This document shows positions 12,696 to 48,749 of a stretch of DNA of 64,000 nucleotides, one piece after another. The number at the start of each line of letters is the position of its first letter. Position 1 is the stretch's first letter. Source of the stretch: Desulfuromonas acetoxidans DSM 684 (lineage in GTDB: Bacteria; Desulfobacterota; Desulfuromonadia; Desulfuromonadales; Desulfuromonadaceae); NCBI RefSeq assembly GCF_000167355.1, contig NZ_AAEW02000006.1, positions 124,001 to 188,000 on the forward strand, given 5' to 3'. Both the position numbers and the translations under genes were made by a program. The notes under the pieces were generated by a model. That model saw only the letters and a list, made by a program, of their open reading frames with translations, was not told the DNA's origin and did no database searches.

Positions 12696-13586
12696 TCAAC
12701 AATGTTCTTTAAGGTGATTGTAAAACGCTGTGGCCAGCGGACTGAGCTGACGGTTACGCCGCTGAACCAGGTAAAAGGAGCGTGGCATGCTGACGCCCTC
12801 AATCGGAACCGTCACCAGACTGCCCCGTTCGACATCTTCAGCCACCGACAACGATGACAGGATCGCTACGCCAATACGTGAGCGAACGCCCTGGCGCACC
12901 GCCTCATTGCTGCCCACCTCGGCAACAACCTGAAAATGAGGCACTTCAACGCCGGCTTTTTTCAGCCCTTGCGTCATCTCAATACGGGTGCCCGATCCGG
13001 GCTCACGGAGAATAAACGGCATCTCAAGCAATTCACCGGGATACACCGACGACTTTTTTGCCCAGGGATGATCAGGATAAACGGTCAGGACCAATTCATC
13101 GGAAAACATCTCTTCACACTCAACGCGCTGATCTTTCCACAAAGTACCGATCAATCCCAGTTCAAGCGTCCCCTTGAGAATATCTTCAACCACCGCCGTC
13201 GTGCCGGAGATCTTCAGCATCAGCTCGATACTGGAATACGATGATTTAAAGCTGTCAATCATCGTCGGCAGCAGATAGGCGCCGGGAATGGTACTGGCAC
13301 CAACAGCCAGTTTTCCGGACAGGTTGCCCTGAAACTGCTTGATCGCCTGATCCGCTTCATCTTTAAGCTGAATAATCCGACGGGCATATTGATAGAGAAT
13401 TTTTCCGGCATGGGTTGGCTGGGCACGACGTCCGAGGCGATCAATCAATTTCTCGTTGTAGTGCTCTTCCAACGTCCGGATATGCTCACTGACCGACGGC
13501 TGCGACAGCAGTGCCGCTTCGGCAGCCCGGGTAAAGCTTCCAAGATCAACAACTTTGCAAAAAACTTCGAGTCGGCGAATATCCAC
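12696..13586 (-). CDS. LysR-family transcriptional regulator
   Basis: The GTG at 13586 is preferred: AGGAG lies six bases before it but directly touches the ATG at 13592. 296 residues. N-terminal winged HTH (about 1-60; RAAEAALLSQPSVSEHIRTLEE) and a two-lobed effector domain (about 88-290; GASTIPGAYLLPTMIDSF, REPGSGTR) of the CysB-like kind that binds sulfate-like or small organic ligands. It resembles a LysR group found with selenium metabolism in Geobacter relatives, but no selenium gene is here. The next gene upstream on the same strand is the binding-protein gene, 265 nt away. Confidence 0.9.
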   Translation of the reverse strand: MDIRRLEVFCKVVDLGSFTRAAEAALLSQPSVSEHIRTLEEHYNEKLIDRLGRRAQPTHAGKILYQYARRIIQLKDEADQAIKQFQGNLSGKLAVGASTIPGAYLLPTMIDSFKSSYSSIELMLKISGTTAVVEDILKGTLELGLIGTLWKDQRVECEEMFSDELVLTVYPDHPWAKKSSVYPGELLEMPFILREPGSGTRIEMTQGLKKAGVEVPHFQVVAEVGSNEAVRQGVRSRIGVAILSSLSVAEDVERGSLVTVPIEGVSMPRSFYLVQRRNRQLSPLATAFYNHLKEHC

Positions 13587-13851
13587 ACGCATCTCCTGAC
13601 AGCAATGTTTTAATAGGAATTGCCGATATTATCAGAAGTGGCAAGGGGACGCAATCCTGGAAATCAAAGAACATTCATTCTTTTATTATTTATGAATAAA
13701 ATCGATATTAATCAGTTTTTCCCGATATCTAGCGTTTCGCCCCCGAAAAGAACCCTGGAGAATTCCCGTGAAAAAACAGGGCAAAAATGGATAGGTCACA
13801 TTAATAATGAAGAGCTTTTTGCCCACGCTATTCCCATGCAGCCGTTTTTGG

Positions 13852-14895
13852 TCAGGGCGTACCATCAAGAATATCACGTACCTTTTCGTCACTCAGAGTG
13901 AGGCCAAAAAACAATTGGTAGAAATGGCGTGTTGTTTCAACCATATCCAAGTGGACCGCCTGCGGGTAAAGGCTCTGAGCCAACCATTGCAGGCCGAGAA
14001 ATCGCATCATGGAGGGAGGCCGATCAAACCAGTTCAGTGGATGGTCGGGAATAATCAACACCTGATCACTCTGAATGGCTTGAACCTGTTGCCACGTTGG
14101 CATGTCAACAGCGTGCTCATAAAAATCTCGCTGCGCTGTAATAACCACCTCGGGGTTATACATCAGCACCTGTTCCTGGGTGATTTTGTCTCGACCACGT
14201 CGCTGTTTCAGGACGCCTTTATGGACATTGCAACCACCGGCGAGCCCAATCAACTCAGCATGAAAGGAGTACTCAGGTTCTGTCTCCAACCCGTCATTGC
14301 CCTGGGCATAATACACTCGACGTCGCTGGGATACCGGGATGGTCGCCACAGTCGTGGCGACCTGTTCCAGAACACAACGCCCATAGCGTGCCAGTTTAAG
14401 TCCACGCTGCGGCTCCCCCAACAAGTGGCCCAAAAATTCCAATGTGGCCGGATAGTCTTGAAGACGATCCATGGCGACAAAAACCACCGGAATGTGCCAT
14501 TGGTCGAGCTGACGCAACCAACGCTGAACGACCGGTGACCGACCATCTCCCCAGAAAATCACGACATCGGGATCAATGGCCAGCAAGGTCTCACGATTGA
14601 CGCCCTGACCACCGAGAAAACTGCCAATCACCGGGCGCTGTTTAAGCCGCGGATCAAGAATCTGCCAGTCCGTATCTGAAGGACGTGAGGTAAAGGCAGC
14701 CAGCTTCATCGGGGCAACCGCGTAGATCATCCAATTGACTGGGGCCACACAGCCGACCACGCGATCGATATGGTCGGGAACCGTGACGCTGCGCCCCGCC
14801 ATATCAACGACGTCACGCGCCGAAGCCGGCACAACCATCACCAGAACGATCAACAGGCCCAACAGCAACCGCGCTGGCACGACTAAAACACCCAC
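13852..14895 (-). CDS. BtuF/FhuD/MolA-like periplasmic binding protein
   Basis: 347 residues with a signal peptide (about 1-26, ending ASA). The domain begins VVDMAGRSVTVPDHIDRVV, the usual opening of class III binding proteins with a rigid helix (NRETLLAIDPDVVIFWGD; YNPEVVITAQRDFY). Such proteins deliver siderophores, haem, cobalamin or, in the MolA subgroup, molybdate/tungstate to an ABC importer. Its gene overlaps the TonB receptor gene by 13 nt, so the two form one transport unit. No permease or ATPase gene is in the window. The ligand is inferred only from neighbours, and a metal chelate is the alternative. Confidence 0.88.
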   Translation of the reverse strand: MGVLVVPARLLLGLLIVLVMVVPASARDVVDMAGRSVTVPDHIDRVVGCVAPVNWMIYAVAPMKLAAFTSRPSDTDWQILDPRLKQRPVIGSFLGGQGVNRETLLAIDPDVVIFWGDGRSPVVQRWLRQLDQWHIPVVFVAMDRLQDYPATLEFLGHLLGEPQRGLKLARYGRCVLEQVATTVATIPVSQRRRVYYAQGNDGLETEPEYSFHAELIGLAGGCNVHKGVLKQRRGRDKITQEQVLMYNPEVVITAQRDFYEHAVDMPTWQQVQAIQSDQVLIIPDHPLNWFDRPPSMMRFLGLQWLAQSLYPQAVHLDMVETTRHFYQLFFGLTLSDEKVRDILDGTP

Positions 14896-16748
14896 TTCAC
14901 CCCCAGGTAATAACCCCGCGGCGATAAAGTGAAATCATCGTGCTCTTCATCAAATAGATTATCAATCCCACCATACAAAGTCAGGCTTGCGGTCAGATCT
15001 TTTTCGACATGAAGATGGGTAAGCTGATACGCATCCTGTTCATTGCTCTCGCCATCTTCAGACGTCCCGAAATAGAGCCAGCGCACTTGAGTCATCACGC
15101 CCCAATAAGGGTCTAACCAGGCAAGCGTCACCCCGCTTTTCCAACGCGGCTCATCGGCAAGTTCGTCATGGGTCTGGCGGTCTTCGGTATCAACATAACT
15201 GAACTGTCCGGACAGTTGCACATCACCGGGCAATGCTACGGAGCTTTCAAACTCCACCCCTTCGGCGCGTACTTCATCGATATTGACCATGGTGAACGTT
15301 TTGTATTTACCACTTGCAGACTGCAACTGTGCGGCAATCAAATCATCCAGATCCGTGCGGAACACCACCAACTGGCTGCGGAAACGCCCCCAGTGGAAAC
15401 TGGTTCCGGCTTCATAACTCTGAGAGGTCTCTTCATCAAGATCTTCATTATTTTGATAGGTTTCAAAACCTTTTTTCAGGATAGAGGTCACATACAGTTC
15501 ATTGAGATTCGGTGCCCGAAATCCTTCACCATAACCGATCCACACCCGACCGTGATCATAATGCCAGGTCAGTGTCGCCCGTGGTGTCAGGTGACCACCA
15601 AAATCTTCGTGGTGGTCAAAGCGCACGCCAGCGACCAGGTTAAGCTGTTGCGTGATCCGCCAATCCGCCTGGGTAAACAAGGCACTGTTGAGCACCTTCT
15701 CTTCATTGTGATCCATGCCGCCGACTTTGAGACTGTCTTCGCGAACTTCCCCGCCACTGGTGAGAATAAACCGATTAGAAGTCGAGTAAGTCACCCGGCC
15801 CTCCCCCTGAATCAACCGCCGCCGTTCCTCACTTTTTGACGTAGGCGGATCAAAAGACGAGGTGGCTTTATATTGACTGGCGTAACCTCGCACCATGGCA
15901 GAGAGCGGCTCCCCCTGATTCAGGTGATATTCGGCAAATCCTCCCCAGCGGCGGTCATCGGCATCATAACGTCTATTGATATTCTGGTAATAACGACCGC
16001 CATCGCGTTCAAAATGGCCATATTCCCCACCGAACAACAACTGCTGCTTCGGGCCGATGTTTACGTTGGCACGTCCCAGCACGCTGTTCAATGAGGTTTC
16101 ATCGACATCGTCCGGCAACGCACTGTCACCATCCCAATCATCCTTAACACTGCGCGCCACGCCTAAATTGGCCTGGATGTTTTCGCTACCGCCACCGACA
16201 TAGATTTGACCAAGGTGTTCTGCGGAGGGACCGAAGCCACCACGCACATCGAGACCGGCTTCAGTCTGGGCTGTCGGCTGTCGGGTGATGATGTTGATCA
16301 CACCGCCAATGGCATCGCTGCCGTACAAAGCCGAGGCCGGACCACGTACCACTTCGATGCGTTCAACCATGGTCACCGGTAACTGTGCCACATCCATTTG
16401 CGCTTTAAAGCTTCCCGCCAAGCGGCGGCCATCAAGCATCACCAGGGTGTGATTTCGGCCAATGCCGCGGATGGAGGTGCCGACATTGCGCCCTTCCGCA
16501 GTTATCAGCATCACCCCGGTCGCGTACAACAGCGCTTCGGAGACGGTTTCCGCACCGGTTTCAACCAGTTGCTGTTGATCGAGCACTTCCACAGCCCCCG
16601 GCACCTGATCTACCGCTTTCTCCGCCAGCGTTGCGGTAACAACCAGTGGCCCCAGTTCGGTTGCAGAGCCCTGACCAACTGCTGACATCGGCCAGAACAT
16701 ACATCCAATAACACCAAGTACTTGTGTCCAGCGTTTCAATACATTCAT
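14883..16748 (-). CDS. TonB-dependent outer-membrane receptor
   Basis: 621 residues, the size of BtuB/CirA-type receptors. Signal peptide about 1-26. Plug domain about 35-155 (QVPGAVEVLDQQQL, GTSIRGIGRNHTLVMLDGRR, ERIEVVRGPASALYGSDAIGGVINIIT). A 22-strand-type barrel follows, ending GYYLGVKWVF with the terminal aromatic residue needed for outer-membrane assembly. TATLAEKAV near the mature N-terminus may be the TonB box. GGAG lies before the start. It overlaps the binding-protein gene and faces a regulator with a substrate-binding domain. The ligand is unknown; see the molybdate/tungstate hypothesis under findings. Confidence 0.93.
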   Translation of the reverse strand: MNVLKRWTQVLGVIGCMFWPMSAVGQGSATELGPLVVTATLAEKAVDQVPGAVEVLDQQQLVETGAETVSEALLYATGVMLITAEGRNVGTSIRGIGRNHTLVMLDGRRLAGSFKAQMDVAQLPVTMVERIEVVRGPASALYGSDAIGGVINIITRQPTAQTEAGLDVRGGFGPSAEHLGQIYVGGGSENIQANLGVARSVKDDWDGDSALPDDVDETSLNSVLGRANVNIGPKQQLLFGGEYGHFERDGGRYYQNINRRYDADDRRWGGFAEYHLNQGEPLSAMVRGYASQYKATSSFDPPTSKSEERRRLIQGEGRVTYSTSNRFILTSGGEVREDSLKVGGMDHNEEKVLNSALFTQADWRITQQLNLVAGVRFDHHEDFGGHLTPRATLTWHYDHGRVWIGYGEGFRAPNLNELYVTSILKKGFETYQNNEDLDEETSQSYEAGTSFHWGRFRSQLVVFRTDLDDLIAAQLQSASGKYKTFTMVNIDEVRAEGVEFESSVALPGDVQLSGQFSYVDTEDRQTHDELADEPRWKSGVTLAWLDPYWGVMTQVRWLYFGTSEDGESNEQDAYQLTHLHVEKDLTASLTLYGGIDNLFDEEHDDFTLSPRGYYLGVKWVF

Positions 16749-16911
16749 ACGAGCTACTCCTACTCCTCCATAACAATGGACAGCGCCAGCAAAGCAAACG
16801 ACACGATTCTGTCATCCACCCCAGCAGACGTGACCCAATTTGATGTGGTTCTATTCAGCCACTTTGGACAAATGCGATCTGAGACAACGTAGATAGTCGG
16901 ATAGTTACGGT

Positions 16912-16930
16912 CGAGGCTGCCATAGCCTCG
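16912..16930 (-). promoter_or_regulatory. Hairpin in the TonB receptor leader
   Basis: Seven-base arms CGAGGCT and AGCCTCG around a five-base loop, about 165 nt before the receptor gene. It could be part of a leader RNA. I do not find cobalamin-box or molybdenum-cofactor riboswitch signatures. Confidence 0.3.
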
Positions 16931-16970
16931 GCAGGGATACACAGGCACCATTGGCGAGAAAACCCAGTAC

Positions 16971-16988
16971 GTGACACGATCATGTCAC
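16971..16988. promoter_or_regulatory. 18-bp palindrome upstream of the TonB receptor
   Basis: GTGACA and TGTCAC arms around a GATC centre, eight matching pairs out of nine. On the minus strand it contains TGACATGAT, also present in the palindrome at 18219-18241 before the HTH/PBP regulator. It is a candidate binding site of that regulator. Confidence 0.45.
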
Positions 16989-17076
16989 CAAGCCAGCATG
17001 ATGTCAATACGATTTTTTCGTGCTCTTACCAAAGAGATCACAACAGCAGACAAGGAGAATCAATCAGCGCAAAGCA

Positions 17077-17115
17077 ATTCGGGGCTGTCCTCCCAGAAGA
17101 AGAACAGCCCCGAAT
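17077..17115 (-). terminator. Terminator of the HTH/PBP regulator gene
   Basis: A perfect 12-bp stem (17077-17088 with 17104-17115) 35 nt after the stop on the minus strand. The following bases are only modestly T-rich. Confidence 0.65.
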
Positions 17116-17149
17116 CATAAACAATCACAGCAGAGGGATGTGGGCATCG

Positions 17150-18214
17150 TCAATCATCACGTACCGGAGCAAGCTCACCGGTACGACGACTTTCATAGCC
17201 GGGCAGCTCCGAAAGAATTTTGCGGTATTGCGGTGAACGGATCACCTCAACCAGAGCCGTAATGCGTGGGTCAGACATGGCCGCGTCGAGAATACAGAAT
17301 TCATACGCTTCCTGGCGCACGGAAATAAAATCAAGATTCTGTTGGTCACACACCAGACGCAATGAGACACCCGCCTGAGCAAAACCGCTACGGATCGCCA
17401 GAGCAACGGCACTGTGGTCATTAACCGTATGGGTGGGAACAAAATTATTTTCGTGCAATTCATCGAGAACCTGCCGGGCACCCGAGCCCTCCTCACGGGC
17501 AATCCAGCGCATATCGGCTTTCAGGATCGCGCCAGCACCATTCTGCGCCAACCCCGGAGACAGAGCCAGGCCCTCTTCCCAATCGGCAATTCGCACCAGA
17601 TGAAAATCAGAGTGAAGGATTTGGGCGGCAGCCTGACGATTGCCCTGCTCCTCATCCGATTTACACAAATGAATACCGGCAACATGGATCAGGCCCTGTT
17701 CCAGTAACTCCAGAGCGGTACGACTGGAACGTTGCAACACCACCATACGGAACGGCGTCTGGCGGGCATACTCGGCGGCTAACAGACCCACCGCCGGATC
17801 ACAACAGGCAATCACCAGCGTCCTGACCGGTTCAGCAAACGGGTGATCGACGCATTTGCCGTCACGACACACACCATCATGAGGCACCATCCCCATCGGA
17901 CTGTGTTCGACAGGATACAACAGATGGCGCGACCCCACCATGGCGCGCCAGTAGCGCACCGGGTCCTGCGTGGGCGGCCAGGCCCATTGGGCGGTATCCT
18001 TACCGGCCAAGACGAAAAGATCTTCGACACGACAGTGAAAGGCTGAAGCCAATGCGAGAGCGGCAGCGGTGGAAGGGATCAGCCGCCCTGCTTCAATGGC
18101 ACTGATACCGGTTCGCGACAACCCAGCCCGATCGGCCAGATCCTGCTGCGACCATCCCAGGCCCTCCCGTTTTGCGCGAATGGTATTTTGAAGGACAAAG
18201 TTTTCTTTTGACAT
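17150..18214 (-). CDS. HTH regulator with PBP-like substrate-binding domain
   Basis: 354 residues. An XRE-type helix-turn-helix at about 8-65 (NTIRAKREGLGWSQQDLADRAG, GISAIEAGRLIPS). From about residue 100 a periplasmic-binding-protein-like domain (TLVIACCDPAVGLLAAEYAR, VAGIHLCKSDEEQG, WIAREEGSGARQVLDEL, GFAQAGVSLRLVC) of the kind seen in MoeA-like and molybdate/tungstate-responsive regulators. It lies between the TonB/binding-protein operon and modA-molbindin, so it probably senses the transported oxyanion and controls both sides. A 23-bp palindrome just before its own start codon suggests autoregulation. The ligand is inferred. Confidence 0.87.
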   Translation of the reverse strand: MSKENFVLQNTIRAKREGLGWSQQDLADRAGLSRTGISAIEAGRLIPSTAAALALASAFHCRVEDLFVLAGKDTAQWAWPPTQDPVRYWRAMVGSRHLLYPVEHSPMGMVPHDGVCRDGKCVDHPFAEPVRTLVIACCDPAVGLLAAEYARQTPFRMVVLQRSSRTALELLEQGLIHVAGIHLCKSDEEQGNRQAAAQILHSDFHLVRIADWEEGLALSPGLAQNGAGAILKADMRWIAREEGSGARQVLDELHENNFVPTHTVNDHSAVALAIRSGFAQAGVSLRLVCDQQNLDFISVRQEAYEFCILDAAMSDPRITALVEVIRSPQYRKILSELPGYESRRTGELAPVRDD

Positions 18215-18218
18215 ATTT

Positions 18219-18241
18219 ATATCACCATGACATGATTATAT
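18219..18241. promoter_or_regulatory. 23-bp palindrome between regulator and modA
   Basis: Symmetric about 18230: CATG-A-CATG core flanked by ATAT on the left and ATAT on the right (two mismatched positions per arm). It begins 5 nt before the regulator's start codon and lies 140 nt before modA. Position and symmetry fit an operator of the HTH/PBP regulator. Confidence 0.5.
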
Positions 18242-18298
18242 CTCACAGACGGAGGGCTCGTTCAAGAGTCTCCCATTCAAGGATCAGCCGATCCACGC

Positions 18299-18313
18299 TG
18301 GCTATATCAGCCA
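18299..18313. promoter_or_regulatory. Inverted repeat before modA
   Basis: TGGCT and AGCCA arms separated by ATATC, 68 nt before the modA start. It could be a second binding site or a small leader hairpin; it is too short to judge. Confidence 0.25.
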
Positions 18314-18380
18314 TGCCCATGAGTTAAGACAGACTCAACGATAGCATTCCCCTGTTTTTTTTAGAAAGGATAAAGTTGTC

Positions 18381-19118
18381 ATGCGAAGTTTCCTGATTGC
18401 CATTATTCTGTCTCTGGTGCTTTCCTCCACATCCATGGCTGGAACGATCAACATCTCGGTTGCCGCCAGCATGACGGATGCCGTCAAAGAGCTCATCACT
18501 TTGTTTCAACAACAACACCCCGAAACAACGGTGCTGCCAAACTTCGCTTCATCAGGGGCTCTGGCCAAGCAGATTGCCCAGGGTGCACCAGCGCAGCTTT
18601 ATATCTCCGCCAACCCCAAATGGATGACTTATCTGGTCGACAACGATCTGATCGATAAAGAACGTGTACACACCCTTGCCTACAACACGTTAGTCTTTAC
18701 AGGAAGGCCTGACGTCGCGTTGCAAGAGATGAATGACCTTCTGGCGTTGGAGACCCTGGCCATTGGCAGTCCGAAGAGTGTTCCAGCCGGTCAATATGCC
18801 GAGCAAGCTCTGCAAGCCGCGGGTCTCTATGAACAACTGCAAACGCGGCTGGTACTTGCCAAGGATGTTCGCCAGGCGTTGCTTTATGCAGACCGCGGGG
18901 AAGTTGACGGCGCGTTTGTCTATAAAACCGATGCCCTTCTGGCACAACATGCCAAGATACTTCTTGACGTTCCCCAACACCTTTATAATGAAGTCACCTA
19001 CCCGTTTGCTCTGACACACAGCGGTGAAAAAAGCGCCGAAGCCTACGCATTTGCAGCGTTTCTCTCAACTGAAAAAGCCTCCGACATTCTGGAACACTAC
19101 GGCTTTGTAATTCGTTGA
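18381..19118 (+). CDS. modA: Molybdate-binding periplasmic protein
   Basis: 245 residues with a signal peptide (about 1-20, ending SMA). The mature part starts TINISVAASMTDAVKELITLF and contains FASSGALAKQI, GAPAQLYISAN and DRGEVDGAFVYKTDA, all typical of ModA, which binds molybdate or tungstate through main-chain and Ser/Tyr contacts. ModA normally delivers to ModBC, but neither gene follows; only a molbindin-like gene does. The partner ABC genes must be elsewhere, or this ModA works with another importer. Confidence 0.93.
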   Translation: MRSFLIAIILSLVLSSTSMAGTINISVAASMTDAVKELITLFQQQHPETTVLPNFASSGALAKQIAQGAPAQLYISANPKWMTYLVDNDLIDKERVHTLAYNTLVFTGRPDVALQEMNDLLALETLAIGSPKSVPAGQYAEQALQAAGLYEQLQTRLVLAKDVRQALLYADRGEVDGAFVYKTDALLAQHAKILLDVPQHLYNEVTYPFALTHSGEKSAEAYAFAAFLSTEKASDILEHYGFVIR

Positions 19119-19230
19119 GCACCACCACTTGCATCCCCCAGAAAAGTGCTATACTACACATTGAGGTCGTTACAAAAGACTGAGCCAGTAACACATTGAG
19201 CTTTACCCCCCTCACGCGATGGAGAAGACC

Positions 19231-19443
19231 ATGAAACTGAGCGCACGCAACACCATGAAAGGCACGATCAAAGACATTATTCTCGGCCAAGTCAACGCGG
19301 AAGTGATTCTGGAACTGCCCGGCGGAGAGGTGATCACCTCAATTATTTCAAAAGATGCCGCCGAAGCTCTGGGTCTCACCAAAGGCAAAACAGCGTATGC
19401 CATCATTAAAGCGTCTGCCGTTGTTTTAGGCACAGACGATTAA
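19231..19443 (+). CDS. Molbindin (TOBE/Mop-domain protein)
   Basis: 70 residues from ATG 19231 (GGAG eight bases before). Single Mop domain: KLSARNTMKGTIKDIILGQVNAEVILEL, then GGEVITSIISKDAAEALGL and AYAIIKASAVVLG. This is the standard length of molbindins, cytoplasmic proteins that store or buffer molybdate or tungstate as hexamers. It lies 112 nt after modA and shares its terminator, so the pair may be one transcript. Confidence 0.92.
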   Translation: MKLSARNTMKGTIKDIILGQVNAEVILELPGGEVITSIISKDAAEALGLTKGKTAYAIIKASAVVLGTDD

Positions 19444-48603: not shown

Positions 48604-48749
48604 CAAAAAAATGCCCTGTTCCGGAGGAGGGATGGAACAGGGCGGTGACCCCAAGGGGAAGGGGTCGGCTTGTTGCTGACAGTTTCCTGTCATGGCTTAG
48701 CAACACTGAAAGCGCCTCTCCTTACCGTCATCACGGCTACTGGAAAGAC
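48604..48749 (-). ncRNA. Candidate small RNA, about 145 nt
   Basis: The minus strand has a full transcription unit without an ORF. A sigma-70 promoter (48756-48784), a structured body, and a strong terminator: a perfect 10-bp stem (48613-48622 with 48634-48643) followed by seven T. The body holds a hairpin GTTGCT-(7)-GACAG-GAAA-CTGTC-AGCAAC (about 48668-48698) and a GACCCC/GGGGTC hairpin (48647-48666). Several GGA triplets lie in loops or single strands. I cannot match it to 6S, SRP, tmRNA or a known riboswitch class. It lies between the M16 genes and the sigma-54 regulator and may be a trans-acting RNA. Confidence 0.5.

Follow-up and report, generated by a model that had tools for sequence, protein, structure and literature searches.

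The window that we have analysed is a stretch of 64,000 nucleotides (64 kb) from Desulfuromonas acetoxidans DSM 684. Within it lies an island of five genes, which we assigned using curated families (Table 1). A TonB-dependent outer-membrane receptor overlaps a class III periplasmic binding protein (SBP), whose gene begins with GTG and has its first 13 nt in common with the 3' end of the receptor gene. These genes share their orientation with a helix-turn-helix regulator carrying a periplasmic-binding-protein-like (PBP-like) domain, and modA and a molbindin gene lie on the other strand. All five genes, and the receptor-SBP overlap, are located where the initial annotation had placed them. It had also found the island to be without a permease or ATPase gene, and in the surrounding genes that we examined there is likewise neither a FecCD permease nor an ABC ATPase.

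The receptor operon is served by a promoter of its own and has a leader of 327 nt (both within 16749-17076), which, along with a terminator-like inverted repeat 3' of the regulator gene, separates it from the regulator. The receptor and regulator are therefore probably separate transcripts, although they have the same orientation. We find the order LysR-SBP-TonB-regulator<>modA-molbindin unchanged in four other genomes of the genus, of which one is matched by a Desulfuromonas MAG, and the arrangement is therefore not due to chance. The LysR gene (12696-13592, minus strand) passes the selenium metabolism-associated family NF040786 (290 bits, cut-off 250), and adjoins the island in 5/5 genomes of the genus.

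Table 1. Features of the island, with positions in the window except where another locus is named.
Feature	Position	Strand	Remarks
SBP (class III periplasmic binding protein)	13852..14895	-	347 aa; Peripla_BP_2; GTG start
TonB-dependent outer-membrane receptor	14883..16748	-	621 aa; plug and barrel domains
Operator between leader and receptor start	16799..16814		18.5 bits, second-best in the window
Conserved leader element, model R2	16912..16970	-	about 60 nt; predicted 5' end of the receptor mRNA
Operator TGACACGATCATGTCA over receptor -10	16972..16987		21.5 bits, best in the window
Predicted receptor promoter	16979..17007	-	TTGACA-17-CATGAT; read from sequence
Weaker second palindrome over receptor -35	16991..17006		19 bp from the site at 16972
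Terminator-like inverted repeat	17077..17115	-	3' of the regulator gene
Regulator	17150..18214	-	Cro/C1-type HTH_3; PBP_like (PF12727) sensor domain
Tandem weaker operators, regulator/modA gap	18209-18224 and 18228-18243		19 bp apart; over the predicted modA promoter
modA, molybdate-binding protein	18381..19118	+	TIGR01256, 208 bits (cut-off 62.5)
Molbindin (Mop, single TOBE domain)	19231..19443	+	TIGR00638, 77 bits (cut-off 55)
Moco-II RNAs in related operons	L035 6514-6557 and 9231-9276; L038 9194-9313		

The receptor matches PF07715 (91 bits) and PF00593 (156 bits), and on inspection of the translation there is a TonB-box-like sequence PLVVTA (PLVVTAT) just past the predicted signal peptide, near the mature N-terminus. 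Its best sequence match in the PDB, and thus the nearest solved receptor, is the catecholate siderophore and colicin I receptor CirA (1e-42). The fold is like that of the TonB-dependent catecholate receptors of the CirA/FepA type, but the window receptor differs from these in lacking a Fur box and in sharing its operator with a molybdenum-type regulator. The best upstream match to the delta-proteobacterial Fur consensus (PMC545781) comprises 11/18 positions, the same as in random bins. The receptor scores 197 bits with the TonB-B12 family TIGR01779, far under the curated cut-off of 600, and no cobalamin riboswitch was found in the receptor leader or elsewhere in the window. Control by iron or B12, which the initial annotation had named as the result that would tell against its reading, thus finds no signature at the sequence level.

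Searching the PDB with a profile of the SBP gave the closest matches to 4pag from Sulfurospirillum (1e-116) and 4ovk (6e-42), followed by MolA (2e-35), the nearest identifiable solved relative with a known ligand. YiuA (4e-23 to 2e-22), BtuF (about 1e-17) and haem-binding proteins (7e-13) rank lower. The order in a fold search with an AlphaFold model of the SBP (pLDDT 93) is much the same, MolA (Foldseek E = 1.5e-20) again ranking behind 4pag and 4ovk and ahead of BtuF and the haem proteins. The fold is about as near to YiuA, the ferric-catecholate binding protein of Yersinia, as to MolA; YiuA is of the same length class and about 20% identical. The BtuF family NF002894 gives 55 bits, far under its curated cut-off of 234. 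The protein does not therefore cluster firmly with cobalamin or haem proteins, the other result that would have weighed against the original reading. Taken together, the sequence and modeled fold would permit either an oxyanion or a catechol-type complex as ligand, and disfavour a corrin or haem.

MolA had been put forward as a precedent for molybdate or tungstate (Mo/W) binding, but as a premise this is weak. In Haemophilus influenzae MolA belongs to MolBC-A (HI1472, HI1470/71); it too is a class III SBP, and MolBC-A has a FecCD-type permease and an ATPase, as do the cassettes related to the window SBP. The relationship is evident in both sequence and fold, but the identity is just 21-23%, and where the window clade has the conserved motif WFDRPPS (W-F/M-DRPPS) MolA has WGYPMPE. 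We have therefore rejected any reading of substrate specificity from MolA. The 2014 paper on MolBC-A does not mention TonB (PMC4031551).

The sensor domain of the regulator (PF12727 PBP_like, 131 bits) resembles in its fold the proteins that bind phosphite, sulfite, molybdate and tungstate, including the Geobacter tungstate-binding protein 3lr1. The predicted fold is in line with an oxyanion ligand, short of proof. Orthologs with 62-99% identity are present in 14/147 relatives. The DNA-binding domain is HTH_3, with no match to HTH_17 even at E ≤ 1, and the protein does not have the ModE architecture of a LysR-type HTH with TOBE domains. TaoR itself has an excisionase-type HTH. That HTH regulators with PBP domains serve Mo/W genes, as the initial annotation stated, is borne out by the TaoR family as cited in PMC11980592, which resembles the window regulator in combining an HTH with a PBP-like sensor and in having Mo/W transport targets. 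The same text assigns HTH-17 to TaoR-like proteins, unlike the Cro/C1-type HTH_3 found here.

The regulator orthologs have in their own promoters a 16-bp palindrome with the consensus TGRCANRATNNTGYCA. A symmetric profile was trained on nine regulator promoters from genera other than that of the window and run over the whole 64 kb, with the result that the two best sites both lie upstream of the receptor gene. Their scores exceed the top score in 30 simulated windows, which was 17.6. The third-best site (48677-48692, 16.4 bits), about 220 nt 5' of two M16 peptidase genes, is probably due to chance. Operators often occur in pairs 19 bp apart, spanning the -35 and -10 elements of TTGACA-17-CATGAT promoters. 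The predicted modA promoter is also of this form, and lies under the tandem operators of the regulator/modA gap, which are weak in this genus (13.2 and 10.4 bits). This coverage of -35 and -10 by paired sites suggests that the regulator represses both the receptor operon and modA.

We have scored target promoters in other genomes, taking these as the promoters of the first genes of TonB, MTase-TonB, SBP or modABC operons. Where the regulator is present most have a site of at least 13 bits within 350 nt, although four modABC promoters are not independent, having their gap in common with a training site. In the three targets that fall below 13 bits within this distance (the MTase operons of G086 and G074, and the SBP of G016) sites are found further upstream. 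By contrast, 0/9 target promoters reach 13 bits in genomes that lack an ortholog. A survey for co-occurrence of TonB-SBP pairs with the regulator had been suggested from the window alone; once performed, it places sites 5' of TonB, SBP and modA genes in the genomes with the regulator. Rodionov (2004) noted that the mod operons of Desulfuromonas lack ModE sites of the E. coli type and may obey a different, unidentified signal (PMC545781), for which the operator and regulator of the island are a direct candidate.

The predicted receptor mRNA begins with a second conserved element, which we modeled as R2. It is common to the receptor or SBP leaders of G086 and G016 and to the modA leaders of G053, G038 and G034. 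A search of 277 genomes of the class with the model built from ten training sequences gave five clear new matches (33-55 bits) and one at the edge of the noise (24 bits). All six lie directly 5' of modA, modABC or a TonB-SBP-FecCD-ATPase operon, and in other genera R2 is found only before modA(BC), this SBP or such an operon. Three of the genomes with these matches (G032, G056 and G011) lack the regulator, and the element is therefore independent of it. The Rfam search with the receptor leader matched no family. In an alignment of 16 sequences the covariation analysis found only an invariant 4-bp hairpin, with no compensatory change, and for this reason we do not call R2 a riboswitch. The modA leader of the window holds just a remnant of the hairpin, below threshold, and was not accepted as a copy. 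In other genera it is single or tandem Moco-II RNAs that head related MTase-TonB-SBP-FecCD-ATPase operons. Moco-II is also found at other places in the class, 5' of molybdopterin-binding-domain genes among others. The window and its genus differ in having a different leader element in place of Moco-II (RF01713), which was not found in the window at the gathering score, nor in the receptor leader at E ≤ 10.

Transport across the inner membrane would require a permease encoded elsewhere. There are three full FecCD permeases in the genome, on contigs C3, C8 and C19. In a tree of 103 permeases that on C3 falls into a clade with 71/71 SBP-linked permeases (support 0.97), and those on C8 and C19 group with the controls. 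The C3 permease (C3:153295) is accompanied in its cassette by a regulator paralog, two SBP paralogs, an ATPase, one SAM methyltransferase and a radical SAM protein. In G038 the receptor, SBP, FecCD permease and ATPase form a single operon, with the same R2 leader. From this operon and the placement of the C3 permease, it is probable that the C3 cassette supplies in trans the components absent from the island. The profile does not support a window operator at the C3 cassette, and we have therefore rejected its control by the same operator; its paralogous regulator probably reads another site. The cassette may serve a different ligand, since it has its own SBPs and lacks the operator. The radical SAM protein (L041 8422-10242, minus strand) is nearest to the AmmeMemoRadiSam type, and its C-terminal part resembles the class III SBP of the island; it has relatives in 19/79 of the SBP-clade loci described below.

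An alignment search found 79 loci of the SBP clade, in Desulfuromonas, Geobacter, Desulfobulbus, Sulfurospirillum, Sulfuricurvum, Azomonas, Azoarcus, Rhodocyclus, Spirochaetes and others. We compared these (mean length of locus 17 kb) with 38 FecCD loci as controls. A gene for ModA, ModB, MOP, ModE, MoeA or a PBP-domain regulator lies nearby in 24/79 compared with 0/38 controls (p = 4e-5). In this comparison the cases span phyla while the controls were drawn from relatives of the window genome, case loci supplied some of the seeds, and the loci are related rather than independent. The remaining 55/79 have no Mod, MoeA or regulator gene in the fetched flank. TonB receptors are near 63/79 SBP-clade loci and 10/38 controls, FmdE near 33/79 and 0/38, and two families of SAM methyltransferase near 41/79 and 35/79, with none in the controls. 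In G143 the genes MTase-TonB-SBP-FecCD-ATPase-MOP-MOP-modABC follow in a row on one strand. In several phyla, and under different regulators, related cassettes adjoin modABC, molbindin, ModE, MoeA and FmdE. DUF364 is a frequent partner across the 79 loci (L168-L246), as are FmdE and the two SAM methyltransferase families.

The operator, the leader element and the neighborhood tests thus tie the receptor-SBP pair to molybdenum genes, and they support the initial annotation in its inference that Mo/W, or a chelate of these metals, crosses the outer membrane by this route. At the level of genomic evidence a TonB uptake system belonging to a Mo/W regulon is well supported. It is likely that the receptor and SBP take Mo or W across the outer membrane and through the periplasm as part of a high-affinity uptake, under an HTH-PBP repressor and with the C3 permease acting in trans. 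The genes, their synteny, the co-occurrence of operators with regulator, the leader element, the neighborhood enrichment and the clade of the C3 permease are sequence observations, and from them we infer the ligand of the regulator, the direction of regulation, the substrate, the C3 partnership and the transport as follows. The regulator would sense the intracellular oxyanion through its PBP domain, and when metal is plentiful would bind the tandem palindromes over -35 and -10 and block the receptor and modA promoters. On scarcity of metal the receptor operon and modA would both be expressed. The receptor would then import a metal complex using TonB energy, the SBP would pick this up, and the FecCD-ATPase pair of the C3 cassette would carry it across the inner membrane. 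Free molybdate would be handled by ModA with modBC on contig C14, where there is a modB ortholog, and Mop would buffer molybdate.

It counts against this reading that free molybdate crosses porins, since a TonB route would require a larger or very scarce form of Mo/W. On our reading the metal most likely enters as a complex, whether its ligand is of the catechol type, thio- or another, and not as the free oxyanion. TonB-dependent uptake of metals is of a known kind; what would be new in the island, if our reading is right, is the substrate and its control. In a 2018 survey of molybdenum use the prokaryotic Mo/W uptake systems are ModABC, WtpABC and TupABC, with no term for TonB, the outer membrane or MolA (PMC6147048). 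These take up the same elements, and the island too contains modA, but they are inner-membrane systems, unlike the proposed TonB route. Among the papers available to our literature search there was no TonB-dependent Mo/W uptake system, although the TaoR literature may already list some such transporters. The island is probably a way of bringing Mo/W through the outer membrane that has not yet been described. Where these metals are scarce or bound, as in sulfidic sediment, it would provide a gathering step at the outer membrane that ModABC, WtpABC and TupABC do not cover.

A narrower form of this explanation is that the pair is specific for tungsten, destined for tungstoenzymes, with modA serving for molybdenum. 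The FmdE neighbors, the formate dehydrogenase-like genes present in two loci and the match of the sensor fold to 3lr1 would all fit, but the Moco-II RNA, ModE, molbindin and modABC neighbors are of molybdenum type, and Mo and W are not separable by sequence; we regard it as rather doubtful. We think it unlikely that a molybdenum-responsive regulator controls the uptake of some other substrate, such as chelated iron or some other cofactor required while the molybdenum enzymes are off. It is true that the case for Mo/W uptake is built on regulation and neighborhood, that a receptor nearest to CirA and an SBP close to YiuA would suit a ferric catecholate, and that the SAM methyltransferases, radical SAM protein and DUF364 of related cassettes are unexplained. 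Yet modABC, molbindin, ModE, MoeA and FmdE would not be expected to be kept as neighbors across several phyla, under different regulators, if the substrate were unconnected with Mo/W. Lastly, the receptor and SBP might be of an ordinary kind, for a siderophore, haem or cobalamin, and lie beside modA by chance. This could appeal to the subthreshold TIGR01779 and NF002894 scores, but is very improbable given the operators in common with the molybdenum regulator, the ranking of BtuF and haem proteins behind MolA, and the Fur and riboswitch searches.

Returning to Mo/W uptake, we suggest tentatively that the island represents a widespread, undescribed TonB-coupled class comprising the receptor, an SBP of the WFDRPPS type, FecCD-ATPase, two SAM methyltransferases, FmdE and a radical SAM protein. 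Bacteria that reduce sulfur and metals, and genera known for nitrogen fixation, would use it to import a Mo/W complex. Its control in Desulfuromonadia would lie with a new HTH-PBP repressor, and with a new leader RNA sensing Mo or its cofactor. Through its operator, leader and SBP motif the system can be searched for and tested.

Two further observations concern individual loci. One SBP (G086:C33:24948-25955; L038 6888-7856), from a MAG, lies beside a TonB receptor and itself carries one in-frame stop, either a sequencing error or the mark of a pseudogene. Relatives of the SBP are also found in Azomonas, Azonexus, Azoarcus and Rhodocyclus (L204, L238, L206, L225, L230 and L245), genera known for nitrogen fixation.
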